DNA of 43,719 nucleotides, from positions 1-43,719 of the forward strand of contig JAGWPD010000190.1 of assembly GCA_028870705.1 (NCBI GenBank), written 5' to 3'. Positions within the stretch are counted from its first letter, which is position 1. Every line of letters starts with the position of its first letter. A program made the translations under genes and the position numbers. The DNA is from Gammaproteobacteria bacterium. GTDB taxonomy: Bacteria > Pseudomonadota > Gammaproteobacteria > Steroidobacterales > Steroidobacteraceae. Below are positions 7,028-37,445 of the stretch, piece after piece. Below the pieces are notes generated by a model that was given only the letters and a program-made list of their open reading frames with translations, was not told the DNA's origin and did no database searches.

Positions 7028-9082
7028 GTGAAACAGCACAAGCAGCAACCGGGCGGAGCCCTCTGGCTCGGCCTGGACACCGGGGGCACGTACACCGATG
7101 CCGTGCTGCTGCGGGACGGGCGCGCGGTGATTGCGAGCGCCAAGGCGCTCACCACGCACTGGGATCTCGCGGTCGGCCTTGGCAATGCCATCCGCAGCGT
7201 GCTCGGCAACCTGCCACCCGGCTGCGATCGCCGCGACGTGCAGCTGGTATCGGTGTCGACGACGCTGGCCACCAATGCCGTGGTCGAGGGCCGCTTCAGC
7301 CCGGTGGCGACCGTGCTGATCGGATTCGATGAACCGATGCTGGCGCGATCCGGGCTGCGACGGAGCGCCGCGAGCCCGATCCTGCTGGTGCGTGGCGGGC
7401 ACGATGCCGCCGGGGAAGAATTACAGCCGCTCGACGAAGCGGGCCTGGCTGAGGCCGTGCGCGAATGCGCCGGGCGCGTCGAAGGCTACGCCGTCGCGGG
7501 TTGCTTCTCGGTCCGCAACCCCGGTCACGAGGAACGGGCACGCACGCTGATCCGCGCGCTGTCCAATCAGCCGGTGACCTGCGCGCATGAACTGAGTTCG
7601 AAACTCGACGCGCCACGGCGCGCATTGACGGCCACGCTCAACGCACGGCTGACGCCGCAGATCCGTCACCTGATCGATGCCTTGTCGCAAGTGCTCGAGA
7701 CCGAATCGCTCGACGCGCCGCTGATGATCGTCAAAGGCGACGGTTCGCTGATGAAGGCGGAGGTCGCCTTGGAATACCCTGTCGAAACCATCTTGTCCGG
7801 GCCAGCCGCCAGTGTAGTAGGCGCCGGCTTCCTCACGGGCTTGAGCGATTTTTTGGTATCCGACATGGGTGGCACCACCACCGACTGTGCCGTGGTCAGG
7901 GGCGCTCGCCCCGCGATCAACGCGGAAGGGGCGCTGATCGGCGGCTGGCGCACCATGGTGGAGGCCGTCGACGTGCGCACCGTCGGGCTCGGCGGCGACA
8001 GCCAGGTCGTGCTCGATCGCACGGCGCGCCTGCTGGTCGGTCCGCGCAAGGCGATGCCGCTCTCGCTGCTGGCGCTGCAGGCACCCGCAGTGCTCACCGA
8101 GCTTCGCGCGTTGGCGGCCACGCAGCACCTGCCCGACTACGCCACGCAGTTCGCGTTCCGTAATCCCGGTCGCGCGGCGCCGCCGCACCTCGCCGGGGCC
8201 GAGTTGCGCGTGTGGCAGGCACTGACGGACGCGCCACGCCGCGTCTCGCAGCTGGTGCATAGCGCGCCGGGCCGGGAGGCATTGCGGCGCCTCGCGGATG
8301 CCGGCCTCGCCACCATCGCCGCGTTCACCCCCAGCGATGCGATGCACGTGCTCGGCCGGCAGCAGGGCTGGTCGCGCGAGGCGGCGGAGCTGGGCGCCGG
8401 CCTGCTGGCGAGCGAGGAGCGCAACACGCGTGGCGCGCGCGATTCCGCCAGCGTGCAGGATCTCAGCCACCGCATCGTGGAACACGTGACGCGCGAGTCT
8501 GCCCGCGTGGTGCTGGCCACCGCACTGGCGCAGGATCCGGGCCTCGAAGCGCGCGCCGGCTCGTGGGGGCTGCTCGGCGATCGGCTGACCGATACGGTCA
8601 TCTCCGGCCTGCAATTTTCGGCGCTGGTGCGCGCGGACTGCGGCCTGGCCACGCACCTGGTCGCGATCGGCGCGCCGGTCGCCGGATATTACCCCGAGGT
8701 CGCGCGGCGCCTCGGCGCCGGGCTGTCGATCCCCGCGCATGCCGCGGTCTGCAATGCGGTCGGCGCGGTGGCGGGCGTGGTGACGCAGAGCGCCGAGGTG
8801 ATCGTCAACCAGCCAAGCTTCGGCGTGTTCCGCGTGCATGATCCGGCCGGCAGCCGCGACTACGAAGCGCCGGAGGCGGCCATCGAGCACGCGCGCAAGG
8901 CGGCGCTCGGACTGGCGATCGCCGCGGCCCGGCGCGCCGGCGCGACCGATCCGCAGGTCGAGACCAGCGTGCGCGAACGGCGGGCAAGCATGGGGTCCGA
9001 CCTCGACTACCTGGCCGAAGCGCTGGTGCGCGCGACCGCGACCGGGCGCCCCTACGCCGGCCACCTGCGCGCGCAGGATTAG
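7028..9082 (+). CDS. HyuA-like hydantoinase/oxoprolinase family protein
   Basis: This is a 684-residue ASKHA-fold protein with the phosphate-binding loop LGLDTGGTYTDAVLL near the N-terminus, STTLATNAVVEG, and the second ATP-binding signature SDMGGTTTDCAVV in the middle. HyuA proteins couple ATP hydrolysis to opening of five-membered cyclic amides (5-oxoproline, N-methylhydantoin) or carboxylate activation, usually with a HyuB partner. No HyuB-type gene is adjacent. GTG 7028 is preferred because GGAAG precedes it and homology starts shortly after. ATG 6992 is an alternative twelve codons upstream without a clear ribosome binding site. The last four bases overlap the convergent oxidoreductase. 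A role in making sarcosine from N-methylhydantoin would fit the locus but is only a guess. Confidence 0.8.
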   Translation: MKQHKQQPGGALWLGLDTGGTYTDAVLLRDGRAVIASAKALTTHWDLAVGLGNAIRSVLGNLPPGCDRRDVQLVSVSTTLATNAVVEGRFSPVATVLIGFDEPMLARSGLRRSAASPILLVRGGHDAAGEELQPLDEAGLAEAVRECAGRVEGYAVAGCFSVRNPGHEERARTLIRALSNQPVTCAHELSSKLDAPRRALTATLNARLTPQIRHLIDALSQVLETESLDAPLMIVKGDGSLMKAEVALEYPVETILSGPAASVVGAGFLTGLSDFLVSDMGGTTTDCAVVRGARPAINAEGALIGGWRTMVEAVDVRTVGLGGDSQVVLDRTARLLVGPRKAMPLSLLALQAPAVLTELRALAATQHLPDYATQFAFRNPGRAAPPHLAGAELRVWQALTDAPRRVSQLVHSAPGREALRRLADAGLATIAAFTPSDAMHVLGRQQGWSREAAELGAGLLASEERNTRGARDSASVQDLSHRIVEHVTRESARVVLATALAQDPGLEARAGSWGLLGDRLTDTVISGLQFSALVRADCGLATHLVAIGAPVAGYYPEVARRLGAGLSIPAHAAVCNAVGAVAGVVTQSAEVIVNQPSFGVFRVHDPAGSRDYEAPEAAIEHARKAALGLAIAAARRAGATDPQVETSVRERRASMGSDLDYLAEALVRATATGRPYAGHLRAQD

Positions 9083-10302
9083 GACGGCTGCTGCGAAAAG
9101 CGGCCGGGCCGGTACGGCGCCAGCGCAGCGACCTCGCGTGCGTACAGCAGTTCGGCCCGCACATGCAGGCCGAGGATCGGCGCCAGCGTCATCCCGCTGT
9201 GGGTCACGGCGACATATACGTCCGGCGCACCCGGCACATGGCCCACGATCGGCAAGCCATCCGTGGGCATCGGCCGGAACCCGAGCGTCACGCGATCGAG
9301 TGTCGCGGCACGCGCGTGCGGCAGGAAAACCCTGATCTTGTCGAGCACGCGGTTGCCGTGCATGGCGCGAATCGCCGGGTCGGGGAAATCGACCGCGCCG
9401 GCGCGGATCGCCGCATGCACCGGCAGGTCGGGCGGCTCGGGTGAATCGGTGCCGACCAGCGCGCCATCAGCCATCTGCTTGAACGACAACCCGCCCGGCG
9501 CGTCGCAGACCGTGCGCACCTCGAGCGGCGCCGGCGTGCTGTGCGCGAGGAAACCGGGCGAATGGCGCAACCGCAGCCGGAACCCGGCCATTGCGAGCAG
9601 CGCGGGCGCATCGACTCCGGCGGCGATCACCAGCCGGTCGAGCGGGACCACGCCGCTGCTGGTGTGCACCGCGCGCAGCCGGCCGGCACGCATCTCGAGC
9701 CGCTGCACCTCGACGGGGCACTGGAAGCGCGCCGACCGGAGCCGCGCCTGCGCCAGGAATTGCAGCGTCGCGTGCACCGGGTCGATGTGGCCATCGAGCG
9801 CCGAGTAGATCGCCGCCGCGACCGGGCCAGGCTCGATTGCAGGACCGAAGCCGGCGAATTCCGCACTGGCCAGGTAGCGCACCGGATAGGCGGTGCCGGC
9901 CATCTGCGCGGCATTGGCGCGGACGGCTTCCGCTTCGGCCGCATCGTGCGCCCAGTTCAGATACCCACCCCAGGTGATGCCCAGGCCGAGCGGCTGGTCG
10001 AGCTCGCGCCAGACCGCGATGCTCGCGAGGCGCAAAGCCTGGTAATGGCGGTCGTCAACGAAGGCGTTCAGCCACGCAAAGGAATTGCGCGTCGCGCCGG
10101 CCGCAGGCGCCGTCCGCTCGAACTGCATGACTTCCGCCCCCGCCTCCGCCAGCCGCCAGGCGATCGAGGCGCCGACGATTCCGCCGCCGACCACGCCCAC
10201 GCGCGGACCGCCCGAGCGGATCGTGGCTCCGGCCGCACCGGCTCCGGCCGCGAGCGCCGCGCCCATTCCGGTCAGGGTCTTCAGGAATTGTCGGCGGCGC
10301 AT
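9079..10302 (-). CDS. Tat-exported FAD-dependent oxidoreductase (DAO family)
   Basis: The 407-residue protein begins RRRQFLK followed by an Ala/Gly-rich hydrophobic stretch, a twin-arginine signal for export of a folded cofactor protein. The FAD-binding Rossmann motif VGVVGGGIVGASIAWRL follows at about residues 35-51. The end of the D-amino acid oxidase-type fold (GFRPMPTDGLPIVGHVPGAPDVYVAVTHSGMTLAP) is intact. Family members oxidise C-N bonds of amino acids or methylated amines. It is the last gene of the minus-strand unit headed by an MttB homologue, 32 bp after a dimethylglycine dehydrogenase-type gene, which suggests a methylated amine or amino acid substrate in the periplasm. No covalent-flavin His motif (WHAAG) is present. 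Confidence 0.83.
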   Translation of the reverse strand: MRRRQFLKTLTGMGAALAAGAGAAGATIRSGGPRVGVVGGGIVGASIAWRLAEAGAEVMQFERTAPAAGATRNSFAWLNAFVDDRHYQALRLASIAVWRELDQPLGLGITWGGYLNWAHDAAEAEAVRANAAQMAGTAYPVRYLASAEFAGFGPAIEPGPVAAAIYSALDGHIDPVHATLQFLAQARLRSARFQCPVEVQRLEMRAGRLRAVHTSSGVVPLDRLVIAAGVDAPALLAMAGFRLRLRHSPGFLAHSTPAPLEVRTVCDAPGGLSFKQMADGALVGTDSPEPPDLPVHAAIRAGAVDFPDPAIRAMHGNRVLDKIRVFLPHARAATLDRVTLGFRPMPTDGLPIVGHVPGAPDVYVAVTHSGMTLAPILGLHVRAELLYAREVAALAPYRPGRFSQQPS

Positions 10303-10334: not shown

Positions 10335-12761
10335 TCAGGCGCGCAGCCGCAGGTTGTCCGGATCGTACAACGGTTCGCGGCCCACGACCGCCCGCCGCCG
10401 TTCACCGAGGATCTCGACTTCGAGTTCGGTGCCGGGCACGGCCAGGTCGGTGCGCACGTAGGCGAGCGCGATGCTGCAGCCGAGGCGGTAACCATAGCCG
10501 CCGGAGGTCACCAGCCCGACGACCTCGCCGCCACGGTACACGATCGAAACGGCGGCGGCATCGGCGTCGCCGGCGTCCACCACCAGCGGCACGAAGCGCT
10601 CGCGCGGACCGTTCGCCGCCTCGCGGCGCAAGGCTTGCTGGCCAATGAAGCCGCCGGGCTTGTCCAGCTTCACGAAACGGTCGAGCGAGGCCATGAATGG
10701 CGTGTACTCGGTGGTGAGGTCGGCCTTCCACGAGCGGTAGCATTTCTCGAGCCGCAGGCTGTCCATCGCGTACAAGCCGAAATCCGCAAGCTCCAGGCTG
10801 GCGCCGGCTTCGCCAAGCAGCTCGTACACCGAAAGCAGGTGCTCGACCGGAACGTGCAGCTCCCAACCCAGTTCGCCCAGGTAATTGACGCGCAGCGCGA
10901 TGGCCTGTGTGTAACCGATCCGGATCGTACGCATCGACAGCCATGGGAACGCGGCGTTCGACAGGTCGGCATCGGTGAGCGGTGCCAGCAGCTCGCGCGA
11001 ACGCGGGCCAACCACGATGAGCGTCCCGTACCGCGCCGACAGATTTTCGATGCTTGCGCCGCTGCCAGCGGGCAGGTGTTCGCGCAGCCAATGCTCGTCG
11101 TGCCGCTCGCCCGCCGCGGCGCTGATCAGCCAGAAACGTTCGGGCGTGAACCCGGTGAGTGTCATCTCGGTGACGATGCCGCCGGAGGGTGCGCAGAAAT
11201 AATTGAGCGCGGTGCGTCCCGGCCGCGGCACGGTGCCGGCGACCATGCGGTCGAGCCAGGCGGCGGCGCCGGGGCCCGTGACTTCGAACTTCGTGAATCC
11301 CGGCAGGTCGAGCACCGCCACACGCTGCTGGACTGCGGCGCATTCACGCGCGACAGCGGCGTGCCAGGCGGGGCGCCGGAACGAGAGTTCCCGCCCTTCG
11401 GCGCCATCGCCGGGCCGCGGGAAATACACGGCCCGCTCCCAGCCGCCACGCGCACCGAAGCACGCGCCCTTGTCCCTGAGGCGCTGGTAGACCGGCGAAG
11501 TCTTTGCGGGCCGGCCCGCCGGCCGCTCTTCGGCCGGATAACCGATGCCGTATTCGTGCTGGTAGGTCTCGATCGCCTTGGCCAGGGTGTACCTGCGGTT
11601 CGCGAATTCCAGGTAGCGCCGCGAATCCAGCGGCCAAATGTCCCACTCCGGCTGGCCGTGCGCCACCCACTCGGCGATGCACTTGCCGGCGCCGCCCGCC
11701 TGCGCGATGCCGAAGGTGAATGCACAGCAGTGGTAGAAGCCGGGCAATCCCGGGACCGGACCGATCAGCGGGTTGCCGTCGGGTGCGTAGGGAATCGGAC
11801 CGTTGATCACGGTCTTGACGCCGACGGTACTGAGGATGGGGATCCGCTCGCAGGCCGCCTCGATGTATTTTTCCAGTCGGCCGGTGTCATCGTCGAACAA
11901 CTGGTGCGCGAATTCCTCCGGGATGCGATCGAGCCAATGCGCCCTCGCCTGCCACTCGTATGGGCCGAGGATCAGGCCGTGCCGCTCCTGGCGCAGGTAA
12001 TAGCTGACATCCGGATCGCGCACCAGTGGCAGGCGCGCCGCGCCACGTGCGACCAGTGCGGGTATCTCCTCGGTCACGAGATACTGGTGCGAGAGCGTCA
12101 CCATCGGCAGGTCCTGGCCCACCAGCGCCGCGACTTCGGCGCCACGGTAGCCCGCCGCATTGATCACCGACTGCGCCGTGATCACGCCGCGCGTGGTCTC
12201 GATGCGCCACTCGCCCGAGGGCGTGCGTGCAATGGCCGTGACCCGCGTCTGGCGCTGGATCTCGGCGCCGGCGTCACGCGCACCCTTGGCGAGCGCCTGC
12301 GTCATCTGCGCGGGGTCGATGTCGCCGTCATGGGGATCGTAGAGGCCCGCACGTATGCCAGCCAGCGTAATGAACGGATGGCGAGCGGCCACCTCGGCGG
12401 GACTGAGCATCTCGAATTCAATCCCCTGAGCGCGCGCCTGCGAGACCACATGGCGGAATTCATCGACCCGATCGGCGGTATGCGCGAGGCGGAGGCTGCC
12501 GGTGACGTGGTAGTTGATGTCGTAGCCGACGCGCGCGGCGAGGCCGGCATAGAGGCGCGTGCTGTGGCGCTGCAGCTTGATCAGGTTCCAGGAGGTCGAG
12601 AAGTTCGGGCAGTTGCCGGCGGCGTGCCAGGTCGAGCCCGCGGTCAGTTCGTCGCGCTCGAGCAGCACGGCATCGGTGACCCCGAGTTGCGTGAGATGGA
12701 ATAACGCGGAACACCCGACGGCACCACCTCCAATAACGACAACCTGTGCGTGACTCTTCAT
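10335..12761 (-). CDS. FAD oxidoreductase-GcvT fusion, dimethylglycine dehydrogenase type (copy 1)
   Basis: The 808-residue protein combines an N-terminal DAO-type FAD domain (GGGAVGC at about 11-17) with a C-terminal aminomethyltransferase (GcvT-like, folate-binding) domain from about residue 430. SxTWHAAG places His46 where rat dimethylglycine dehydrogenase attaches FAD covalently. Such enzymes oxidise an N-methyl group and pass the formaldehyde-level carbon to tetrahydrofolate. Near the C-terminus MDSLRLEKCYRSWKADL is the conserved GcvT-type strand. ATG 12761 is chosen because it aligns with the MKSHA start of copy 3 and GGAGAAG lies upstream; GTG 12773 is possible. It lies 27 bp after copy 2 in the same operon. 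The exact amine is unknown. The segment after WHAAG (NCPNFSTSW) differs from both other copies. Confidence 0.87.
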   Translation of the reverse strand: MKSHAQVVVIGGGAVGCSALFHLTQLGVTDAVLLERDELTAGSTWHAAGNCPNFSTSWNLIKLQRHSTRLYAGLAARVGYDINYHVTGSLRLAHTADRVDEFRHVVSQARAQGIEFEMLSPAEVAARHPFITLAGIRAGLYDPHDGDIDPAQMTQALAKGARDAGAEIQRQTRVTAIARTPSGEWRIETTRGVITAQSVINAAGYRGAEVAALVGQDLPMVTLSHQYLVTEEIPALVARGAARLPLVRDPDVSYYLRQERHGLILGPYEWQARAHWLDRIPEEFAHQLFDDDTGRLEKYIEAACERIPILSTVGVKTVINGPIPYAPDGNPLIGPVPGLPGFYHCCAFTFGIAQAGGAGKCIAEWVAHGQPEWDIWPLDSRRYLEFANRRYTLAKAIETYQHEYGIGYPAEERPAGRPAKTSPVYQRLRDKGACFGARGGWERAVYFPRPGDGAEGRELSFRRPAWHAAVARECAAVQQRVAVLDLPGFTKFEVTGPGAAAWLDRMVAGTVPRPGRTALNYFCAPSGGIVTEMTLTGFTPERFWLISAAAGERHDEHWLREHLPAGSGASIENLSARYGTLIVVGPRSRELLAPLTDADLSNAAFPWLSMRTIRIGYTQAIALRVNYLGELGWELHVPVEHLLSVYELLGEAGASLELADFGLYAMDSLRLEKCYRSWKADLTTEYTPFMASLDRFVKLDKPGGFIGQQALRREAANGPRERFVPLVVDAGDADAAAVSIVYRGGEVVGLVTSGGYGYRLGCSIALAYVRTDLAVPGTELEVEILGERRRAVVGREPLYDPDNLRLRA

Positions 12762-12788
12762 TATTCGCTTCACTTCTCCAGGGCGCGC

Positions 12789-15248
12789 TCAACCCCTGAT
12801 GCGCTCGCTCCTGGCGTCGTACCAGGGCTGGAGCTGAACCGCGGCCGGGAAGCGCTCGCAGGCGACTTCGACTTCCCAGCGGCCCGCTGCGAGCCACTCG
12901 CCCGTGACACCCGCATCGCAATTCACGTAACCCATGCCGAGCGAACGGCCCAGCCGGTGGCCCCATGCTCCCGACTTGATCGACCCTACGATCACGCCGT
13001 CGCGAACGATCGGTTCCTCGTGGTAGAGCAGCGGCGCCCCGGGCGAGGAATCCTGCAGCATCACCTGCACCAGGCGCTTCGGCAGCGAAGCGCGTGCGCG
13101 CTGCGCCAGCAAGGCATCGCGCCCGAGAAAGCCCCCGGGCTTGTCCCAGGCAACCACGAAGCCGAGCCCCGCTTCGAGCGGCGTGTCTTCATCGCCGATG
13201 TCGTGGCTCCAGTGGCGGTAGCCCTTTTCCACGCGGCAGGCCGCCATCGCGTGGTAGCCCGCATGGCGCAATCCCAACGGCTCGCCCGCGGCCACCAGCC
13301 GCTCATAGACATCGAGGCAGTGCTCGGCCGGAATGTAGAGTTCCCAGCCCAGTTCGCCCACATAGGTGATGCGGCTGGCGCGCACGCAGGCATAGCCGAT
13401 CTCGAGCTCGCGTGAATGACCGAAGGGATGCGCGGCATTCGACAGGTCCGCGCCCGAGAGCGACTGCAGCAACTCGCGTGAGCGCGGGCCCATGATGCCG
13501 AGCATCGCGACGCCGGCCGTGACATCCGTCACCGCGCAATGCGCGCCGGGGCTGGCTGCGACCTGCCGGCGGAGCCAGGCCAGGTCGCGCGTCTGGCAGA
13601 TGGCGGAAGTCACGACCAGGAACTCGTGCGCTGTGAGCCGCGTGATGGTCAGGTCTGCCTCGATGCCTGCGCGCTCGTTGAGCCACTGCGTGTACACGAT
13701 CCGGCCCGGCGCCACGTCCACACTGGCCACCGACATCTGGTCGAGGATCGCGCAGGCATCGGCGCCCTGCACCAGGAATTTCGCGAAGCAGGTCTGGTCG
13801 AACAGCGCCACGGCATCGCGGACCGCGCGGCATTCGGTGCCGCAGGCGTCGAACCAGTTCTGCCGTCCGTAGGAGTATTCATAGCGCGGCGCGGAGCCTG
13901 GCGCGGCAAACCAGTTGGGCCGCTCCCAGCCGGCGGTCTCGCCCATGCAGGCTCCCGCGGCGACCAGGCGGTCGTGGAGCGGCGTGCGCCGCGCGCCGCG
14001 CGCGGTCTCGTACTGGTAGTACGGCCAGTGCATCGCGTACAACAGGCCGAGCGTCTCGACCGTGCGATCGCGCAGGTAACGCCGGTTCGCCTGGAATGGC
14101 ACGATGCGCCGGATGTCGACATCGGCGAGATCCAACGGCGGACGCCGGTCCCTGATCCATTGCGCCAGCACCTTGCCCACGCCCCCGCTCGACTGGATCC
14201 CGATCGAGTTGAAGCCGGTGGCGACGAACAGGCCGCGCACCTCGGGTGTCTCGCCCACGTAGTAGCGATCATCCGGCGTGAAGCTCTCCGGGCCGTTGAA
14301 GAACAGCTGGATGCCAGCGTCGGCAAGCGCGGGCACGCGCCGGATCGCCGCGTTCAGGATCGGCTCGAAATGTGCATAGTCCTCGGGCAAAGTCTCGAAG
14401 CTGAAATCCGCGGGGATCCCCTGCATGCCCCAGGGCTTGGCCACGGGTTCGAAGCAGCCGAGCAGGAGTTTGCCCGCGTCCTCCTTGTAATAGGCGCATT
14501 CGTCCTGGACGCGCAGCACCGGCAGGTTTGCGGGCAGGCCCGGCATCGGCTCGGTGACGATGTAGAAATGCTCGGCCGCATGGAGCGGAACCGCCGCGCC
14601 GCACTCGCGCGCGATCGCGTGCGACCACATGCCTGCGCACAGCACTACCGTATCGGCCGCGATGTAGCCAGCGCGCGTCTCCACGCCGATCGCGCGGCCG
14701 CGCTCGACGCGGATCCGCTGCACGGCCGTGCTCTCGAAGATGCGCGCGCCGCGCATCTTGGCGCCCTTCGCCAGCGCCTGAGTGGTGTCGATCGGGTTGG
14801 TCTGGCCGTCCTTGCGCAGGAACACGCCGCCGACCAGGTCATCGACCGCGAGCAGCGGCCAGCGTTCGCTGATCTCGGCCGTGCCCAGCACGTCGATCTC
14901 GAGGCCAAAAGTCCTGCCCATCGAGGCGCCGCGCTTCAATTCCTCGAAGCGCGCCGGCGTCTTCGCCACGCTGATCGACCCGTTCTGCTTGAAGCCGGTG
15001 GCCTGCCCGGTCTCGGCCTCGAGCGAGTGGTAAAGGTCGGCCGTGTATTTCGCCAGTTCGGTGAGGTTGCGCGTGGCCCGCAGTTGCCCCACCAGGCCCG
15101 CGGCATGCCAGGTCGTACCGGAGGTGAGCTTGCTGCGCTCGAGCAGCACCACGTCGGTGATGCCGAGCTTCGTCAGGTGATAGGCGATCGAGCAACCGGC
15201 AACGCCGCCGCCGATGATCACGACGCTGGCGCGATCCGGAGGTGACAT
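12789..15248 (-). CDS. FAD oxidoreductase-GcvT fusion, dimethylglycine dehydrogenase type (copy 2)
   Basis: This 819-residue protein has the same two-domain plan as copy 1: an FAD motif GGGVAGC (about 13-19), TTWHAAGL with the candidate covalent-FAD His at 48, and a GcvT domain from about residue 430 ending in GRWEVEVACERFPAAV. In the GcvT domain the usual GGI-x-x-E segment reads RAGIEADLTI, so the acidic residues are arranged a little differently from the other two copies. It probably demethylates a secondary or tertiary amine in the cytoplasm with folate as carbon acceptor. ATG 15248 follows the MttB stop by 7 bp. A GTG at 15263 would overlap MttB. Coupling to the MttB homologue suggests the two act on consecutive substrates. 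Confidence 0.87.
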   Translation of the reverse strand: MSPPDRASVVIIGGGVAGCSIAYHLTKLGITDVVLLERSKLTSGTTWHAAGLVGQLRATRNLTELAKYTADLYHSLEAETGQATGFKQNGSISVAKTPARFEELKRGASMGRTFGLEIDVLGTAEISERWPLLAVDDLVGGVFLRKDGQTNPIDTTQALAKGAKMRGARIFESTAVQRIRVERGRAIGVETRAGYIAADTVVLCAGMWSHAIARECGAAVPLHAAEHFYIVTEPMPGLPANLPVLRVQDECAYYKEDAGKLLLGCFEPVAKPWGMQGIPADFSFETLPEDYAHFEPILNAAIRRVPALADAGIQLFFNGPESFTPDDRYYVGETPEVRGLFVATGFNSIGIQSSGGVGKVLAQWIRDRRPPLDLADVDIRRIVPFQANRRYLRDRTVETLGLLYAMHWPYYQYETARGARRTPLHDRLVAAGACMGETAGWERPNWFAAPGSAPRYEYSYGRQNWFDACGTECRAVRDAVALFDQTCFAKFLVQGADACAILDQMSVASVDVAPGRIVYTQWLNERAGIEADLTITRLTAHEFLVVTSAICQTRDLAWLRRQVAASPGAHCAVTDVTAGVAMLGIMGPRSRELLQSLSGADLSNAAHPFGHSRELEIGYACVRASRITYVGELGWELYIPAEHCLDVYERLVAAGEPLGLRHAGYHAMAACRVEKGYRHWSHDIGDEDTPLEAGLGFVVAWDKPGGFLGRDALLAQRARASLPKRLVQVMLQDSSPGAPLLYHEEPIVRDGVIVGSIKSGAWGHRLGRSLGMGYVNCDAGVTGEWLAAGRWEVEVACERFPAAVQLQPWYDARSERIRG

Positions 15249-15255
15249 GCGCTGC

Positions 15256-16821
15256 TCAGGCACCTTTGGGCCGCATGCCCTCGCGTGGCAGGCGCACCGG
15301 GAAGCGGCGGCGGATCTGCACGTCGACCGCTTCCGGCACGTGCGCGGGGAAGTGGTTGGCGAGTATCTGCGCTACCTTGCGCGCGGCGCGCTCGGTGATG
15401 TCGGTCGCGCCCTGCTCGGTCCATTCGTTGGGACTGCGCCGGTCACCGACCGCCGGGTAGAGATATTCAGTCTGCATCAGCTGCAGCGTCTGGTCGCTCC
15501 CGAGGAAGTGCCCCGGGCCATTTACGCAGACATCCCTGATGGTCTCGAAGGACAGGCGCTCCTCGGTGACCTCGATTCCCTTGATCGTGCGCTGCGCCGC
15601 GCCGATGATGTCATTGTCGATCAGCAGGCTCTCGAGCGAGTAGCCCAGGAGGCTGGCGTGCATGCCAGCCGACTCGTAGATCATGTTGACGCCCGAGTTG
15701 CCGACCAGCGCGTGATTCAGCGCCTTCTCCGCTCCCGACTGGCCGTCCGGGATCTTCGAATCGGTCATGCCCGAGGCCGTGCCGCCGGTGAGCTCGTAGA
15801 AGTTGGCCATCTGGCCGGCGGCCGAGGACAGCAGCGCCTGCTCCGGGCTCCCGCCCGACATCGCACCCGTGCGCAGGTCGGACACGAAGCACCAGGTGCC
15901 GAAGATCGCGGGATGCCCCGGCCTGATCGCATTCACGTATACCAGGCCCGCCAGCACTTCCGCGACTTCCTGTGCCAGCGCTCCGGCGAGCGCTGCCGGT
16001 GCGGTCGCGCCCGCCTGCCCGGCCGACAGCAGCAGCACGGGCATGCCGCCGCGCACCGCGACTTCGAGGCAGCGACAGGCGTCGGTAGCGAACTTCATCG
16101 GCGGCACGACGAAGCAATTCGACTGGCTCACGAACGGGCGCTCGCGCCATTGCTGCTCGCTGCCCGCAATCAGGTGCAGCATCTGCAGCGAGGCTTCGAG
16201 TTGCTCCGGTTGCACCCAGCTGCTGCCCACGTGCTTGGTCGTGCTCATGACCGAGGCGTAGCAGGTGTTGAAGTCCATCTCGAAGGGGTCGGGGATGTCG
16301 CGCGGCACCACTGCCCGCTGGAAGAAGTGGATGTGGTCCATCGCATCGACGATGCGGCCGATGTCATAGAGGTCCTGGATCGTCGACTGGCGGTAGCTGC
16401 CATCCGCGTTGACCATGTTCACGGCCGCGCCGGCGGTGCCGAAGTAGGCGCGCTTGCCCCAGGGTTCGAGGTCGTGCTTCGGGTCCTGTGCGTGCAGCGG
16501 GAAATTGCGCGCTGCCTTGGCGAGCGTGTCTTCGACCAGTGAGCGCGGGTACAGCAGCCGGCCCTGCGGACTGCGTGTGCAGCCGGCACGCGTCATGATC
16601 TCGACGCCCGATTCAGTCGCATCGGCCAGGCCGACCTCGGACAACAGGCGCAGCGCGGTCTGGTGGATCAGCTGCACGTCGCCATCGCTCAGCGGCCGAT
16701 AGCGGCCGCTGGTCATCCCCGGCCGTACCGGGCGCAGGTGATCGGGCAACGGCCCGGCCCGTTCCGCGCGGCGGGCATCGCGCCCCGAAGGTCGCCGGGC
16801 TACAATCGGACCGTCACTCAC
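15256..16821 (-). CDS. MttB-family (trimethylamine methyltransferase-like) protein, no pyrrolysine
   Basis: The 521-residue protein matches the TIM-barrel MttB superfamily throughout, with diagnostic stretches GTWCFVSDLRTGAMSGGSPE and GMTDSKIPDGQSGAEKAL. Classical MttB reads an in-frame amber codon as pyrrolysine; here the frame has no internal TAG, so this is the non-pyrrolysine branch, which includes the glycine betaine methyltransferase MtgB. MtgB moves a methyl group from glycine betaine to a corrinoid protein. The N-terminus carries a basic motif RRPSGRDARRA that is shared with the second MttB homologue at 42157. GTG 16821 has AGGAG at good spacing. It is first in a four-gene unit with two DMGDH-type fusions. 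No corrinoid protein gene is nearby. Confidence 0.85.
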   Translation of the reverse strand: MSDGPIVARRPSGRDARRAERAGPLPDHLRPVRPGMTSGRYRPLSDGDVQLIHQTALRLLSEVGLADATESGVEIMTRAGCTRSPQGRLLYPRSLVEDTLAKAARNFPLHAQDPKHDLEPWGKRAYFGTAGAAVNMVNADGSYRQSTIQDLYDIGRIVDAMDHIHFFQRAVVPRDIPDPFEMDFNTCYASVMSTTKHVGSSWVQPEQLEASLQMLHLIAGSEQQWRERPFVSQSNCFVVPPMKFATDACRCLEVAVRGGMPVLLLSAGQAGATAPAALAGALAQEVAEVLAGLVYVNAIRPGHPAIFGTWCFVSDLRTGAMSGGSPEQALLSSAAGQMANFYELTGGTASGMTDSKIPDGQSGAEKALNHALVGNSGVNMIYESAGMHASLLGYSLESLLIDNDIIGAAQRTIKGIEVTEERLSFETIRDVCVNGPGHFLGSDQTLQLMQTEYLYPAVGDRRSPNEWTEQGATDITERAARKVAQILANHFPAHVPEAVDVQIRRRFPVRLPREGMRPKGA

Positions 16822-16861: not shown

Positions 16862-17437
16862 ATGAACAGGCTCGTCAGTTTTACGCAGATGAAGGCAGGC
16901 ACGCGCGCGGACTACGTGCTGCTGGACCAGTCGGAGCGCGAATTTGCGCTGCAGCTGCCCGAGCGCGTGCTGGGCGCGCTGCGCGAGCTCGATCACTCCG
17001 TCGAAGGCTACCCGGTCAGCCGGCTCGAGCACAGCCTGCAGGCTGCCACGCGCGCCCGGCGCGATGGTGCGGATGACGAACTGGTGCTGGCGGCGCTGAT
17101 CCACGACATGGGTGACCTGCTGGCCCCATATAACCACGCCGAACTCGCAGCCGCGGTGATCCGGCCTTACGTGCGCGAGCAGGTGAGCTGGATCGTGGAA
17201 CAGCATGGGTTGTTCCAGACCTATTACTACGTGCATCACCTGGGCGGTGATCGGAACATGCGCGAACGGTTGCGCGGCCACCGCTGGTATGAGGCCTGCG
17301 CCGCGTTCTGCGAACAATACGACCAGGCGTCGTTCGATCCCGGCTACGCGAGCCTGCCGCTGACGGATTTCGAACCGCTGGTGCAGGAGATATTCGCGCG
17401 CCAGCCGCACGATCCGCGTTACACGGCGGTCGCATGA
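16862..17437 (+). CDS. HD-domain protein, PhnZ/TmpB-like mixed-valence di-iron oxygenase candidate
   Basis: This is a 191-residue HD-superfamily protein. Candidate metal ligands are His57 (SRLEHSLQ), His81-Asp82 (LIHDMGD), His92 (PYNHAE), His115 (EQHGLF) and Asp154 (EQYDQ). That is six positions in the order used by PhnZ, TmpB and myo-inositol oxygenase, and the 24-residue gap from the first His to HD equals that in PhnZ. Those enzymes use O2 and a di-iron site to cleave C-P or C-C bonds. TmpB releases glycine betaine and phosphate from a hydroxylated trimethylammonio-phosphonate. The betaine context makes that role attractive but unproven; a plain phosphohydrolase is possible. Its stop overlaps the next start (ATGA), so the two are coupled. 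Confidence 0.7.
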   Translation: MNRLVSFTQMKAGTRADYVLLDQSEREFALQLPERVLGALRELDHSVEGYPVSRLEHSLQAATRARRDGADDELVLAALIHDMGDLLAPYNHAELAAAVIRPYVREQVSWIVEQHGLFQTYYYVHHLGGDRNMRERLRGHRWYEACAAFCEQYDQASFDPGYASLPLTDFEPLVQEIFARQPHDPRYTAVA

Positions 17438-18648
17438 GCGGCGTGCCGTGCCGCTGGACACGCACCGCCTGCTTGGCGGCCCTGTCGGCGCTGGCAACCG
17501 GCGCCGCACTGGCACGGCCACCGCCGATACGGCACGTCTTCGTCGTGGTGCTCGAGAATCAGTCCTATGCGCTCACCTTCGGTCCGGACTCGCCAGCCCG
17601 GTACCTGAACTCGCTCCGCCAGCGAGGCGCCAGCGTGCCGAACTACTACGGCACCAGCCACATGAGCCTGGGCAACTACCTCGCGATGATCAGCGGCCAG
17701 GCGCCGAACCCGGAGACGAACTTCGACTGCGAGGTCTACTCGGAATTCGTCAGCACCGGCACCCGCCCCGATGGCCAGGAAATCGGCAAGGGCTGCGTGT
17801 ACCCCGCGCACGTGCCTACGCTGGCCGACCAGCTCGTTGCAGCGAAGCTGAGCTGGCGTGGCTACTTCGAGGACATGGGCAATGATCCGGCGCGCGAGCG
17901 GGCAACCTGCGGTCATCCGCCGCGGGGCCAGGCCGACAATACCCAGGACGCGACGCCGCGCGACCAATACGCCACGCGCCACAATCCGTTCATGTACTTC
18001 CACTCGATCATCGACACGCCGCAATGCGACCGGAATGTCGTCAACCTGCGCGAGCTGGCGCACGACCTGCGCTTCGAGCGCGCGACGCCCAATTTCGTGT
18101 TCATCGTGCCCAACCTTTGCCACGACGGGCACGATGGCGGCGGCAGTTCACGCTGCGTGAATGGCGAGCCCGGCGGACTCGAGTCCGCGGATGCGTTCCT
18201 GCGCAAGCTCGTGCCGCGGCTCACTGCCGCGCCGGCGTTCCGGCACGACGGCCTGCTGATCATTACTTTCGATGAAGCCGCCATCACGGGTGATGACCAG
18301 GCACAGGGCGGCGGCCCCCGGGGCAATGGCGCGGCAGCGGCCTGCTGCGACGAACAGCCTGGCCCGAATATCCCGGCCTACAACTCCGCCCCGGGCTATC
18401 ATTCAGCAACGGGGATGAACGGCCCGGGTCTGGTCGGGCCGGGAGGCGGGCAGGTCGGCGCGGTGCTGCTCTCGCCATTCATCCGTCCCGGCACGACCAC
18501 TGGCACGCCCTACAACCATTACTCACTGCTGCGCAGCGTCGAGGACCTGTTCTCGTTGCCGCACCTGGGCTATGCCGCGCAGGATGGATTGCAGCCGTTC
18601 GGCCCGGATATCTACACCCGGCCGCCCACGCGTACCGCGGGGCCCTGA
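17434..18648 (+). CDS. Secreted phosphoesterase (acid phosphatase/phospholipase C-like, AcpA/SapM type)
   Basis: The 404-residue protein begins with a Sec-type signal (hydrophobic LAALSALATGAALA, cleavage near Ala-Arg). It then shows the phosphoesterase-family motifs HVFVVVLENQSY (metal-binding Glu-Asn), TSHMSLGNYLAMISG, LIITFDEA (metal Asp-Glu) and YNHYSLLRSVEDLF near the end. These match Pfam phosphoesterases such as AcpA, SapM and phosphocholine-specific phospholipase C relatives, which release phosphate or phospho-head groups outside the cytoplasm. It overlaps the HD-domain gene by 4 bp, so both are made together. Its end overlaps the convergent GDPD by 37 bp. A role in releasing phosphocholine or phosphate from lipid head groups is inferred from the surrounding choline genes. 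Confidence 0.82.
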   Translation: MSGVPCRWTRTACLAALSALATGAALARPPPIRHVFVVVLENQSYALTFGPDSPARYLNSLRQRGASVPNYYGTSHMSLGNYLAMISGQAPNPETNFDCEVYSEFVSTGTRPDGQEIGKGCVYPAHVPTLADQLVAAKLSWRGYFEDMGNDPARERATCGHPPRGQADNTQDATPRDQYATRHNPFMYFHSIIDTPQCDRNVVNLRELAHDLRFERATPNFVFIVPNLCHDGHDGGGSSRCVNGEPGGLESADAFLRKLVPRLTAAPAFRHDGLLIITFDEAAITGDDQAQGGGPRGNGAAAACCDEQPGPNIPAYNSAPGYHSATGMNGPGLVGPGGGQVGAVLLSPFIRPGTTTGTPYNHYSLLRSVEDLFSLPHLGYAAQDGLQPFGPDIYTRPPTRTAGP

Positions 18649-19613
18649 GCGCGCAGCACCTGCAGCGCGAGGTCGGGACGATCGGTGATCAGCCCGTCGA
18701 CGCCCATCGCGATGATCCGCAGCATGTCGGCCGGATCGTTGACCGTCCAGGGTATGACCTTGAGTCCGAGCGCCCGGGCCTCCGCCACCTGCGCGTGGCC
18801 GAGATCGAGATAATCGGGTGACCAGGTGCCTGCGCCGCTGGCCTGCGCGAGCCGTGGCACCGAGCCGCCGAAACCGCGTGCGTCCAGGCCGCCCAGCCAC
18901 GGCGAGGCTGCCGCGCGCTCGAATTGCACCGTGTCGTCCGCGCCCTGCTGGTCGGTCAACGCGCCGGTCGCCAGGCCCGGGGCAAGGTGATGCACGCAGT
19001 TCAGCACGCGCCAGTCGAAGCACTGGATCGTGGTTCGCGCCGCCATGCCGCTCGCCGCGACCACGGCCAGCAGCGCCGCGGTGAATACCGCGGGAGTCGC
19101 GGTCAATTCCGGCTGCAATGGGAAGGTCTTGACCTCCACGTTGAGGTGGACCGAATTGGCGGCGTTACGCTCGATCAGCGCGTACAGCTCGGCGAGCCGC
19201 GGAATGCGCTCGCCATCGATCGGCTGCTGCTGCGGGTGGGCGCGCTCGTAAGCGGTGCCGGGCCGGATGCGGCCGACGTCGTAGGTGGCCAGCTCGGCGT
19301 AGTCGAGCGCGTGGATCAGCGGCCCCGGCCCGGATAGGAACCGGCCCGCCGCATCGCGGGTGTGATCGGGATTGAGCTGCGGGTCGTGACTGATCACGAC
19401 CACGCCGTCACGGGTCAGGGCGCAGTCGAGCTCGAGCGTGTGGACGCCGAGTGAAAGCGCACGCTCGAAGCCACCTAGCGTGTTCTCCGGCCACAGGCCG
19501 CGGGCGCCCCGGTGGCCCTGCAGATCAAACCATTGCTCGCCCAAGCTGCCCCCGCAGGTGGATGGTGCCAAAGATTCCAATTCAGTGACGGCCCGCGCGT
19601 CTCCCGGTACCAT
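18612..19613 (-). CDS. Glycerophosphodiester phosphodiesterase
   Basis: The 333-residue protein contains the GDPD barrel signature HRGARGLWPENT, then HTLELDCALTRDG and VVISHDPQL (catalytic His and metal-binding Glu/Asp), VEVKTFPL, and the closing WTVNDPADMLRIIAMGVDGLITDRPD. It hydrolyses glycerophosphodiesters such as glycerophosphocholine to glycerol-3-phosphate and the alcohol. No signal peptide is evident, so it is probably cytoplasmic. The N-terminal 30 residues before QGHRG are not typical of the family; the true start may be a downstream TTG, and ATG 19613 lacks a clear ribosome binding site. In this locus it could supply choline to BetA. It is divergent from the ABC binding protein across 38 bp. 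Confidence 0.85.
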   Translation of the reverse strand: MVPGDARAVTELESLAPSTCGGSLGEQWFDLQGHRGARGLWPENTLGGFERALSLGVHTLELDCALTRDGVVVISHDPQLNPDHTRDAAGRFLSGPGPLIHALDYAELATYDVGRIRPGTAYERAHPQQQPIDGERIPRLAELYALIERNAANSVHLNVEVKTFPLQPELTATPAVFTAALLAVVAASGMAARTTIQCFDWRVLNCVHHLAPGLATGALTDQQGADDTVQFERAAASPWLGGLDARGFGGSVPRLAQASGAGTWSPDYLDLGHAQVAEARALGLKVIPWTVNDPADMLRIIAMGVDGLITDRPDLALQVLRAQGPAVRVGGRV

Positions 19614-19651
19614 TGGGCGGCGCTGGCACCAGGCATCCTGGGGGACATTAC

Positions 19652-20743
19652 ATGAAACTCGTGCTTTCCGTATTGCTCAGTGCCGGCATGCTCCTGGCTA
19701 CCGGCTGCTCCTCGCACCACGGGGACCAGGGAGCGCCCGGCACCGACGAGTCCAAGACGCTGCGCATCATCACGTGGTCCGATTACATCCCGCAGGAAAT
19801 CGTCGACCAGTTCAGGCAGGAGACCGGCATCCAGGTCGAGGTCTCGCTGTCGAACAACGAGGAGATCATCTCCAAGCTCCGCGCGACCGGTGGCGCGGGC
19901 TTCGACCTGGCGCAACCCTCGCAGGACCGCATCATCAGCGCGCAGCGGGAGTTCCGCATATACCGACCAATCGACCTAACCAAGGTAAAACTGGACGAAT
20001 TTAGAGCAGACCTGCTCGAGATCGTGAAGAAGAATGCCACCTACGAAGGCCAGCTGTATGCCCTGCCCTACGTCTGGGGCACCGAAGGCCTGCTGGTCAA
20101 TTCGAAGCGGGCCAGCATCAGCGACTACCTGGACCTGTGCCGGCCCGACCTGAAAGGCAAGACCTCCGTGCGCCTGCGCCGGCCCACGCTCATGGCCTTC
20201 GCGCTGGCCATCGGCAAGGACCCGTTCGCGCTGTATGGCGACCCCAGGGCCTACAGCGCGCTGATGGATGAAGTCGGGCGCACGCTCATCGCGTGCAAGC
20301 CCAACTTCCGGTTCTTCTATGACAACAAGGACCAGCTCATCAACGGCGTGCGTTCAGGCGAAATCGTCGCCTCGATGATGTGGGATTCGGTGAGCTGGAA
20401 GCTCAACCGCGAGAACCCGGACCTCAAGTACATCAATCCCAAGTCGGGCGCGATCGCCTGGCTGGATACGATGGCGCTGCCCGCGCGCGGCCGCAACGAG
20501 GCCGGCGCCTACAAATGGATCAATTTCACGATGCGGCCGGACGTCGCGGCAAAGATCGCCAGGTCGATCGGCAATTTTACCGCCTCGAAGGATGCGGACG
20601 CGCTGATGGATCCCGAGCTCAAGGCGCAGTTCGCCGCGAGCTTCCCCGATGGCATGAAGAACCTGAAGTGGTATCCGGCCATTCCGCCGGGTCTCGAGGA
20701 GATCGAGGGCCGGGTGCTCGACCGGATCAAGGCGGCGAATTGA
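19652..20743 (+). CDS. ABC transporter substrate-binding lipoprotein, spermidine/putrescine (PotD/PotF) type
   Basis: The 363-residue protein starts with a lipoprotein signal (lipobox LLATGC, Cys about 19) and the polyamine-binding fold start TLRIITWSDYIPQEIVDQF. The ATG is preceded by GGGGGA. Homologues bind polyamines in the periplasm, and relatives bind other cationic or quaternary amines. The neighbouring choline and sarcosine genes suggest that the ligand here may be a methylated amine, which is inference. Codons for about residues 103-119 (19958-20008) form a patch of ATA, CGA, CCA, CTA, GTA, AAA, TTT, AGA and GCA that stands out from the GC-rich usage around it. It heads a tightly packed transporter operon, 2 bp before the ATPase start. 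Confidence 0.87.
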   Translation: MKLVLSVLLSAGMLLATGCSSHHGDQGAPGTDESKTLRIITWSDYIPQEIVDQFRQETGIQVEVSLSNNEEIISKLRATGGAGFDLAQPSQDRIISAQREFRIYRPIDLTKVKLDEFRADLLEIVKKNATYEGQLYALPYVWGTEGLLVNSKRASISDYLDLCRPDLKGKTSVRLRRPTLMAFALAIGKDPFALYGDPRAYSALMDEVGRTLIACKPNFRFFYDNKDQLINGVRSGEIVASMMWDSVSWKLNRENPDLKYINPKSGAIAWLDTMALPARGRNEAGAYKWINFTMRPDVAAKIARSIGNFTASKDADALMDPELKAQFAASFPDGMKNLKWYPAIPPGLEEIEGRVLDRIKAAN

Positions 20744-20745
20744 CG

Positions 20746-21879
20746 ATGGCGGCGAATTCCACCGCCGCTGCGCGGCCGGACCTCGAAGCGCACGCCGTCA
20801 TCAAGCGCTTTGGCCACCAGGTCGCGGTCGACGCCGTCTCATTCAGCGTCGCGCGCGGCAGTTTCTTCTCCATCCTCGGGCCGTCGGGTTGCGGCAAGAC
20901 GACGTTGCTGCGGATGATCGCCGGGTTCATCGCCCCCGATGGCGGTGATATCCGGATCGGCGGCCGCAGCATGGCCGGAGTGGCGCCCAACCGGCGCCCG
21001 GTCAACATGGTGTTCCAGCACCTGGCGCTGTTCCCTATGATGAACGTGGCCGAAAACGTCGCCTTCGGTCTGGCGCGGCGCGCCGTGCCGCGCGCCGAAC
21101 GCACCCGCAAGGCCGAAGCGATGCTCGAGCGCGTCGGCCTGGCCGGCGCCGGCCTCAAGCGTGTCGATGAACTTTCGGGCGGGCAGCGCCAGCGCGTTGC
21201 GATCGCGCGCAGCCTGGTGCTCGAGCCAACGCTGCTGTTACTGGATGAGCCGCTGGGCGCCCTCGACCTGAAATTGCGCGAACACATGAAGATCGAGCTC
21301 AAGCAACTGCAGTCGGCGTTCGGCACCACCTTCGTCTACATTACCCATGACCAGTCCGAGGCGCTGGTGCTATCCGATCATGTCGGCGTAATGAACCGCG
21401 GGCACTTCGAGCAACTCGGCACCCCGCAGGAACTCTATTACGCTCCCGCCACCCCATTCGTCGCGGCCTTCGTCGGCGCCAATAACCGGATGACCGGGAA
21501 GGCGAGCGCAGTGCACGGCGAGCTGGTCGATGTGACGACCGACGCGGGCTGGCGGATCAGGGCCCGGCGCATCGGCACGATCGGCGTCGGTGCCGCCGTC
21601 GAGGCCTTTGTGCGGCCCGAGGCTGCCACGATCGGGCGCACGAGCGCGGAACTGGCGCCATTGGCCGGCCAGGTGGTCCACGCAGGCGATGTCGAGAGCC
21701 TGCTGTTCGATGGCGCCAATTCCGCCGTGTTGGTGCGGGAAGCGGCCAGCCGGTTCGAGTTCCGAATCGCCCTGCCGCAGACCGGACGCTACGCCGACCT
21801 GAAGGTGGGGGAGCGCATCGCCTTCAGTTTCGATCCCGAGCGCGCCGCGTGTTTTGCGGCGCCGCCCGCCCATGCTTGA
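20746..21879 (+). CDS. ABC transporter ATPase, PotA/PotG type
   Basis: The 377-residue ATPase energises the importer encoded around it. Walker A is GPSGCGKTT, the Q-loop is VFQHLALFP, the signature is LSGGQRQR, Walker B is LLLLDEPLGALD, and the H-loop is ITHDQSEAL. A C-terminal TOBE-like domain (about residues 250-377, including VEAFVRPEAATIG) is typical of PotA-type subunits. ATG 20746 is chosen although the frame is open far upstream, because it sits just after the binding-protein stop and the family N-terminus fits. The 3' end overlaps the first permease by 8 bp. Confidence 0.9.
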   Translation: MAANSTAAARPDLEAHAVIKRFGHQVAVDAVSFSVARGSFFSILGPSGCGKTTLLRMIAGFIAPDGGDIRIGGRSMAGVAPNRRPVNMVFQHLALFPMMNVAENVAFGLARRAVPRAERTRKAEAMLERVGLAGAGLKRVDELSGGQRQRVAIARSLVLEPTLLLLDEPLGALDLKLREHMKIELKQLQSAFGTTFVYITHDQSEALVLSDHVGVMNRGHFEQLGTPQELYYAPATPFVAAFVGANNRMTGKASAVHGELVDVTTDAGWRIRARRIGTIGVGAAVEAFVRPEAATIGRTSAELAPLAGQVVHAGDVESLLFDGANSAVLVREAASRFEFRIALPQTGRYADLKVGERIAFSFDPERAACFAAPPAHA

Positions 21880-22756
21880 AGCGACCGCGACCGCGGCCTG
21901 GCACCGGCGGCTGATGCTGGGCCTGCTGCTCGCGCCGGCGCTGCTGTGGCTGTTCGCGCTGATCGTGCTGCCGCACCTCGATCTCGCGCTGCTTTCGTTC
22001 CGCGAGCCGGTCGCGCCGCGCAAGTACGTGCCGAGCCTGGCGCAGTACCGCACTTTCTTCGCCGAACCGCTCTACTGGCATGTGTTCATGCGCACTGCCA
22101 TCCTGTCGGCGCTGGCGACCGCACTGACGCTGCTGATCGCGTTCCCGGTCGCGTGGACGATCGCCAAGCTGGCGCGCGGCCGGATGGGTGCGCTGCTGTT
22201 CGTCGTATGCCTGATCCCGTTCTGGGTGAGCGAAACGGTGCGCACGCTGGGCTGGATGATCCTGCTGCGTGAATCCGGCGTGCTGCCGGCGCTGCTCGTG
22301 CGGCTGGGCCTGACGAACGGCCCGGTGGAACTGCTTTACCACGACGCAACGATACTCGTCGGCCTCGTGTACACCTCGCTCCTGTTCATGGTGGTGCCGC
22401 TGGTCGGGAGTCTCGAGAGCCTGGATAATTCGCTGATCGAGGCGGCCTATGACCTCGGCAGCGGCGGCTTCGCCATCCTGCGCAAGATCGTCATACCGCA
22501 CGCGGCGCCGGGCATCACCGCCGGCTGCATCGTGGTGTTCATGCTCACGCTCGGCAACTACCTCACCCCGACGCTGCTGGGCGGCAAGAACTCGCTGTGG
22601 TTCACCGAGCAGATCTACACCCAGTTCATCACCCGCTTCAATTGGGAACAGGGCGCAGCCTTCGGTTTCCTGCTGCTGGCGCTGTCGACCGCGATGGTGT
22701 GGTTCGGCCTGAAGCTCAGCGGCCAGCGCTTCAGCGACGTGATGCGGCGCACATGA
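21872..22756 (+). CDS. ABC transporter permease, PotB/PotH type
   Basis: The 294-residue inner-membrane subunit has about six hydrophobic helices. The first is LMLGLLLAPALLWLFALIVLP. The EAA-type cytoplasmic loop that docks the ATPase reads EAAYDLGSGGFAILRKIVIPHAAPG. ATG 21872 overlaps the ATPase end. In this family it pairs with the PotC/PotI-type subunit encoded next. The start overlaps and uniform strand show that the four genes form one operon. Confidence 0.9.
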   Translation: MLEATATAAWHRRLMLGLLLAPALLWLFALIVLPHLDLALLSFREPVAPRKYVPSLAQYRTFFAEPLYWHVFMRTAILSALATALTLLIAFPVAWTIAKLARGRMGALLFVVCLIPFWVSETVRTLGWMILLRESGVLPALLVRLGLTNGPVELLYHDATILVGLVYTSLLFMVVPLVGSLESLDNSLIEAAYDLGSGGFAILRKIVIPHAAPGITAGCIVVFMLTLGNYLTPTLLGGKNSLWFTEQIYTQFITRFNWEQGAAFGFLLLALSTAMVWFGLKLSGQRFSDVMRRT

Positions 22757-23613
22757 TCCCCTCGCTGCCGAGGCCGTTGTGGCTGCGTGCTTCAACCGCC
22801 GTGTTTCTGGTGGCGTTCCTCGTTTTCCTGTTCCTGCCGCTGGTCATCGTTGCGGTATTCGCGTTCAACGATGCGAATTATCCGGCCCCGCCGTGGCACG
22901 GATTCACGCTCGACTGGTTCCTCGGCAATGATTCCGCCGGCCGTGTCGGCCTGTTCAGGGATACACAGTTGCTGGCCAGCATATGGACCAGCTTCGTGGT
23001 CGCCTGCTGGGTCACGGTGCTCGCCGTCGTCGTCGGCACCGCCAACGCTTTCCTGATGGAGCGCGCGGACTTCCCGGGGAAAGGCGCGCTGTCGATGCTG
23101 ATGCTGGTGCCGCTGGTGATCCCGGGAGTGATCCTCGGCATCTCGATCCTCGCTTTCGCCAGCCGGGTGGCCGACTTCGCCAGCGATGTGTTCGGGCTGG
23201 AGCTCGACTTCCTGCGGCCCGGGCTGCCCCTGGTGGTGCTGGGCCAGTTCTCGTACATCGTCGCCATTGCAACGCTCACCATCAGCGCGCGTCTCAAGCG
23301 CTTCGATCGCACGCTCGAGGACGCCGCGTTGAACCTCGGCGCGACGCGGCCCGCGGTGCTGCGCACCATCACGCTGCCCTACCTGCGGCCGGCGCTGGTC
23401 GGTTCGGCGGCGATCGCCTTCCTGATGTCGTTCGAGAATTTCAACACGACACTGATGCTGGTGGGCGCCGACTCGCCGCTGACCATCATGATGTACGGGC
23501 GCATGCGCGAAGGGGCGACTCCGGTGCTCAATGCGGTGAGCCTGTTCCTGATGGTCGCCTCGGCGCTGCTGGCGCTGACGCTGATGCGGCGCAATGACCG
23601 CAAGGATGCGTAG
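22753..23613 (+). CDS. ABC transporter permease, PotC/PotI type
   Basis: This is a 286-residue permease with six hydrophobic segments and the EAA loop EDAALNLGATRPAVLRTITLPYLRPA. The extracellular segment FAFNDANYPAPPWHGFTLDWF is characteristic of the second permease of spermidine/putrescine-type importers. Its ATG overlaps the stop of the first permease (ATGA), indicating translational coupling. It is followed within 4 bp by a Na/Pi-cotransporter homologue, which is an unusual last gene for a Pot-type operon. Confidence 0.9.
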   Translation: MIPSLPRPLWLRASTAVFLVAFLVFLFLPLVIVAVFAFNDANYPAPPWHGFTLDWFLGNDSAGRVGLFRDTQLLASIWTSFVVACWVTVLAVVVGTANAFLMERADFPGKGALSMLMLVPLVIPGVILGISILAFASRVADFASDVFGLELDFLRPGLPLVVLGQFSYIVAIATLTISARLKRFDRTLEDAALNLGATRPAVLRTITLPYLRPALVGSAAIAFLMSFENFNTTLMLVGADSPLTIMMYGRMREGATPVLNAVSLFLMVASALLALTLMRRNDRKDA

Positions 23614-23617
23614 TTAA

Positions 23618-29177: not shown

Positions 29178-29178
29178 C

Positions 29179-37418: not shown

Positions 37419-37445
37419 GGAGCCTCCGCGGCTGCTCGCGCCGGG

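Follow-up and report, generated by a model that had tools for sequence, protein, structure and literature searches.

The gene at positions 15256–16821 of the minus strand, here called MttB15, very probably encodes the subunit that acts first, and sets the substrate specificity, in an aerobic-type demethylation system dependent on cobalamin; the corrinoid protein of this system (MtgC) is encoded on another contig, and the substrate is probably an amine other than glycine betaine. This reading draws on gene content, gene order, phylogeny, co-occurrence across genomes and adjacency in relatives. The window, i.e. the whole stretch of 43,719 nucleotides that was analysed, is the entire contig C137 of a genome of 2.99 Mb in 343 contigs that is 93% complete, and the gene calls used for its feature list were made with a codon-usage heuristic. 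MttB15 and the unit downstream of it comprise the following genes:

15256–16821, minus strand: MttB15, non-pyrrolysine methyltransferase of the MttB superfamily, 521 aa (PF06253, TIGR02369, structure matches)
12789–15248, minus strand: FADGcvT12, DMGDH-type FAD-GcvT fusion (DAO, FAO_M, GCV_T and GCV_T_C)
10335–12773, minus strand: FADGcvT10, second FAD-GcvT fusion (Pfam domains DAO, FAO_M, GCV_T and GCV_T_C)
9079–10302, minus strand: FAD-dependent oxidoreductase (DAO) with the Tat-like N-terminus MRRRQFLK (PF01266, 161.9 bits)

The MttB15 protein belongs to the MttB superfamily, matching PF06253 (MTTB) with 380.6 bits against a curated cut-off of 25 and over the whole domain (profile positions 2–489 of 500), while its score against the model of pyrrolysine-containing MttB, TIGR02369, is 348.5 bits and thus under the cut-off of 525. 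The reading frame has no internal stop, so that the gene is intact, and Met352 stands at the position of Pyl334; a pyrrolysine enzyme of the TIGR02369 class was therefore ruled out, and the non-pyrrolysine MttB homologue that the initial annotation had placed here is borne out. The closest solved structures are 9yce and 2qne (228 bits, approximately 460 residues aligned), the latter of which we take to be from Desulfitobacterium hafniense. This MtgB is a non-pyrrolysine member of the same family as MttB15 but differs from it in having Leu, not Met, at the pyrrolysine position. It is under the name MtgB that 2qne appears in PMC9842639, and D. hafniense, an anaerobe, has a corrinoid protein of its own (PMC12478193). 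Compared with Methanosarcina MttB (7xcl), likewise of the MTTB family, MttB15 lacks pyrrolysine, with Met352 in its place, whereas Tyr364 and Gly110 align with Tyr382 and Gly131 of MttB15, the residue roles in MttB being those given in PMC9842639. The nearest named records are MAGs of Gammaproteobacteria and Proteobacteria, among which those titled Steroidobacteraceae and Nevskiaceae show 81–82% identity to MttB15; homologues also occur in the culturable species Dongia mobilis (L112) and Sulfitobacter mediterraneus (L146). The same genome also holds a very divergent MttB homologue (L018:9367-10884, minus strand; 186.8 bits to PF06253), which is nearest to the pyrrolysine MttB structures (116 bits).

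The TGA of MttB15 lies at 15258–15256 and the ATG of FADGcvT12 at 15248, which confirms the 7-bp gap to a FAD-GcvT fusion that had been described, and the second fusion and the Tat flavoprotein are likewise present on the same strand. FADGcvT12, the domain scan of which was run on 12789–15263, carries DAO, FAO_M, GCV_T and GCV_T_C in a single chain, as expected of a DMGDH-type fusion, and resembles in sequence, over nearly its full length, dimethylglycine dehydrogenase (5l46), its best match among solved structures with 470 bits. FAD-GcvT genes recur near MttB15 relatives in 57 of 80 named loci and in 16 of 20 loci picked from a survey of the order, some of which lie on the same contigs, while the flavoprotein at 9079–10302 is matched in just three of the 80. 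The only other neighbour that recurs widely and could be named is a LysR-type regulator of distant loci, its cluster being found in 19 of 57 loci with one member identified, in a count where many of the recurring clusters are shadow frames; the conserved neighbours thus gave no substrate assignment.

On the other side of MttB15 the window continues with a small HD/MIOX-like protein (16862–17437, plus strand), divergent from MttB15, with weak matches, far below cut-off, to the phosphonate HD oxygenases PhnZ and TmpB, and then, upstream at 17545–25321, with genes for a phosphoesterase, a GDPD, a PotD-like ABC transporter and a Na/Pi cotransporter with PhoU. The latter group bears on the idea that the substrate of MttB15 is not a betaine but an ester or other derivative of choline, such as phosphocholine or a related phosphorus compound. 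GDPD-like genes are also found near MttB15 relatives in L131 and L141, and the MttB relative MthB of E. limosum, likened here by description, uses phosphocholine (PMC12155760). The genes for the phosphoesterase, the transporter and the Na/Pi cotransporter lie, however, on the strand opposite to MttB15, the GDPD gene is on the same strand but two genes apart and is seen in four of the 80 loci, and MthB did not use glycerophosphocholine (PMC12155760), so that such a substrate is regarded as improbable.

The remainder of the window, on which the initial annotation was silent, contains a third FAD-GcvT fusion, sarcosine oxidase, two dehydrogenases of choline oxidation, a choline transporter and a second MttB:

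25431–27890, plus strand: FADGcvT25, third FAD-GcvT fusion, adjoining the sarcosine oxidase genes (domain scan)
27921–33000, plus strand: heterotetrameric sarcosine oxidase SoxB, SoxD, SoxA and SoxG (SoxB 686 bits, over cut-off; SoxD and SoxG; SoxA by domains)
35763–38939, minus strand: choline dehydrogenase BetA and betaine-aldehyde dehydrogenase BetB (TIGR01810 and NF009725, over cut-off)
38999–42087, plus strand: choline ABC transporter, fused binding protein-permease and ATPase (TIGR03414 and TIGR03416, over cut-off)
42157–43719, plus strand: MttB42, second MttB, MtgB-like (PF06253, 765.7 bits; runs to the contig end)

The choline binding protein and permease share a single frame (38999–40849, plus strand) in which both models score over cut-off, and the ATPase reaches 480.2 bits against TIGR03415, slightly below the cut-off of 483.75. 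Two further genes are a TonB-dependent receptor (33010–35703, minus strand), relatives of which lie near MttB15 in 10 of the 80 loci, and a DDE transposase near the contig start (550–1650, plus strand). Because the third FAD-GcvT fusion, SoxBDAG, BetA and BetB lie between two MttB genes and are joined by the choline transporter and MttB42, the window looks, by its gene content, like an island for the catabolism of choline and glycine betaine.

MttB42, which directly follows the choline transporter genes, scores about twice as high as MttB15 against PF06253 and matches the solved structures 4yyc and 2qne with 745 and 429 bits, respectively; it is thus MttB42 and not MttB15 that is the close relative of MtgB, and the two fall into separate clades. 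The tree, built from 121 MttB-family sequences from the loci, with solved structures left out and branches without support values, groups MttB15 with 95 relatives in a clade separate from that of MttB42 and its relatives. The pyrrolysine position is occupied by Met in 92 of the 96 members of the MttB15 clade and by Leu in all 11 MtgB-like proteins, while the position of MttB Tyr364 (Tyr382 of MttB15) is Tyr in 96/96 clade members; the MtgB-like set has Leu or Thr there, in a part of the alignment that may be out of register. Judged from these sequences, the MttB15 clade is distinct from the MtgB-like proteins, with fixed differences between them.

The island could nevertheless be read such that glycine betaine has in MttB15 a second methyltransferase, i.e. 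an MtgB isozyme, with FADGcvT12 and FADGcvT10 performing the dimethylglycine and sarcosine steps. This would agree with the choline and glycine betaine setting, with DMGDH being the closest solved structure to FADGcvT12, with the presence of an MttB15 relative (56% identity) in a Ruegeria MAG (L148) and with the joint increase of two pfam06253 proteins that R. pomeroyi shows on glycine betaine (PMC12478193). It is nonetheless considered rather unlikely, given that MttB42 is far nearer to MtgB 2qne, that the invariant Tyr382 and the other fixed differences set the MttB15 clade apart, and that a third FAD-GcvT fusion and SoxBDAG are already in the window. Since the window thus already has, in MttB42 and the downstream steps, a better candidate for glycine betaine, MttB15, probably a paralogue, most likely serves a different trimethylated amine.

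The window contains no B12-binding gene, PF02310 having no match on C137, just as had been claimed; its three matches in the genome are all elsewhere. One of these, at C248:6537-7244, is an MtgC-type corrinoid protein with PF02310 and PF02607 over cut-off, and the contig that carries it (12.8 kb) has, in one run on a single strand, genes for an AraC regulator resembling GbdR, MtgC, DUF1638, DUF5981, MetF, MtgD and a RamA-type activase, as well as a short gene of a “virulence factor” family. MtgD reaches 370 bits against NF005719 (cut-off 259) and the activase is over the cut-off of PF14574, while the narrow NCBIfam models stay below cut-off for MtgC (206.1 bits; 370), GbdR (397.6; 480) and the RamA-like activases (392.5; 800), so that the assignments rest on Pfam domains, gene order and, for MtgD, NF005719. 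On that basis the genome has the MtgC-, MtgD- and RamA-type genes of an aerobic MtgBCD system, and the lack of a corrinoid partner, which had been presented as a special property of this locus, does not stand, all the less so as MtgC adjoins MttB15 in some relatives. The other two B12-binding proteins were rejected as not MtgC-like, the one on C52 being a fusion of the mutase type and the one on C323 matching B12 and radical-SAM models weakly. At 93% completeness the genome has no match to PF02965, the activation domain of MetH, and two to PF02574, one on C123, below the NCBIfam cut-offs, and one on C219; this pattern would fit a split methionine synthase, the PF02574 genes being MtgE candidates only.

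The association extends to relatives. Among 296 genomes of the order, surveyed for an MttB15-type match at E 1e-60 (some of the matches belonging only to a sister group with 37–48% identity), such a gene is found in 78, of which 72 have MtgC, 72 have RamA and 73 at least one of the two; the five that have neither are 66–88% complete. The corresponding counts in the other 218 genomes are 46 and 55, and the Fisher p-values for this co-occurrence, which disregard kinship, should be read as a strong association only. When 67 MttB15 hits were tested for position, MtgC was on the same contig in 32, within 10 kb in 22, and in six no more than 100 bp away, in the same orientation, although in two of these six (G125 and G290) one stop codon interrupts the MtgC stretch, and G290 has only a partial MttB, lying at a contig end. 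Identity to MttB15 is 53–60% in those relatives that have MtgC within 10 kb, and their substrate might differ. A genome of the same genus (G158) has MtgC 11.4 kb from MttB15, with MtgD and RamA in between, and 7 of the 20 order-spanning loci picked from the survey have MtgC, MtgD or RamA within the fetched stretch. Among the 80 named loci, with flanks of up to 10 kb and many shorter, any of the three is found in one only, L079, which is the G158 contig and shows MtgD/RamA; MtgC itself is in the flank of none. Since 79 of the 80 flanks thus have none of the three genes, the adjacency is lineage-specific and the link one at the level of the genome.

These counts also bear on a further suggestion, namely that MttB15 passes the methyl group directly to folate, to a FAD-GcvT partner or to free cobalamin, without a corrinoid protein. 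The frequent FAD-GcvT neighbours and the flanks free of MtgC would be in line with it; against it are the near-complete co-occurrence with MtgC and RamA, the six genomes with closely adjoining MtgC and the established chemistry of MttB, which requires Co(I). Direct transfer to folate, which the initial annotation had left open, is accordingly disfavoured and corrinoid-free transfer was rejected as highly improbable, while its other option, a distant corrinoid protein, agrees with the MtgC-, MtgD- and RamA-type genes found together on C248. The comparison shows that the absence of a corrinoid gene beside mttB is not evidence of corrinoid independence.

A cobalamin-dependent route with dispersed genes is in print as a class, the aerobic MtgBCD system having been published in 2025 (PMC12478193): R. 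pomeroyi requires mtgC and mtgD to grow on glycine betaine, these genes not being collocated in it, and those for subsequent steps in the demethylation of glycine betaine are often near mtgBCD (PMC12478193). It is predicted there that multiple pfam06253 proteins act through this route on a range of methylated compounds, so that the idea of an MttB15-type demethylation of other amines is not new (PMC12478193). The present genome shares with the MtgBCD(E) system of Ruegeria pomeroyi DSS-3 (PMC12478193) a pfam06253 protein, MtgC, the pterin-binding MtgD, RamA and DUF1638, the position of MtgC and MtgD away from the MttB gene, the absence of the MetH activation domain and the presence of PF02574 genes, a likeness of gene content and description. 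It differs in that MttB15 is not MtgB-like by sequence and its gene comes first in a unit that includes two FAD-GcvT fusions, and in that the host is probably an uncultured gammaproteobacterium. Neither a substrate of the MttB15 clade nor its pairing with FAD-GcvT is reported in the portions of the sources covered by a narrow literature search.

As for a demethylation by oxygenases, neither PF00848 nor the GbcA model NF058607 has a match on the window contig, in agreement with the statement that GbcAB is missing from it, and when all four PF00848 hits of the whole genome were scored against the GbcA model, none reached the cut-off, the best being 265.8 bits on C37 against 670, in a search where none of 14 control genomes was over cut-off, i.e. 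one without a positive control. Of the two findings that the initial annotation had named as together speaking against it, an MttC/RamA set elsewhere in the genome was encountered, as MtgC and RamA, and a GbcA over cut-off was not. The C37 protein (L153:4407-5639, minus strand) is a Rieske oxygenase related to GbcA and to 3vca/4qup, which we take to be the stachydrine demethylase Stc2, and because of this relatedness an oxygenase route to the demethylation of some betaine is possible in this genome, which counts against a purely corrinoid-based one. In the vicinity of its gene are a GcvT-like gene that stands alone and a PotG-like (polyamine-type) transporter ATPase; this is perhaps another betaine demethylation locus.

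In the model preferred here, the reactions of which are taken from the chemistry of the family and in which the contacts between partners, the aerobic life of the host and the substrate are likewise predicted, MttB15 would transfer one methyl group from a quaternary amine to Co(I)-MtgC, from which MtgD would pass it on to tetrahydrofolate (THF), with RamA, perhaps together with DUF1638, re-reducing the cobalamin and MetF oxidizing the methyl-THF. FADGcvT12 and FADGcvT10 would then oxidatively strip the next two methyl groups, from the tertiary and the secondary amine, onto THF, while glycine betaine would more probably be handled by MttB42, FADGcvT25 and SoxBDAG. The core of the initial proposal, a demethylation unit in which MttB takes the first step and FAD-GcvT enzymes the following ones, is in this way supported by the gene content and the partner set on C248. 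A bolder version, put forward tentatively and with somewhat less than even confidence, is that MttB15 together with the two adjacent FAD-GcvT enzymes makes up a self-contained module removing three methyl groups from a quaternary amine other than glycine betaine, with one methyl-THF formed via the shared MtgC and two methylene-THF, and that MttB15 represents an as yet unassigned clade of MttB proteins found across both Gamma- and Alphaproteobacteria. The preferred model would extend the cobalamin-dependent osmolyte demethylation of aerobic marine bacteria to a probably uncultured gammaproteobacterial lineage, and it marks out a separate clade of MttB proteins that is often encoded together with FAD-GcvT demethylases.
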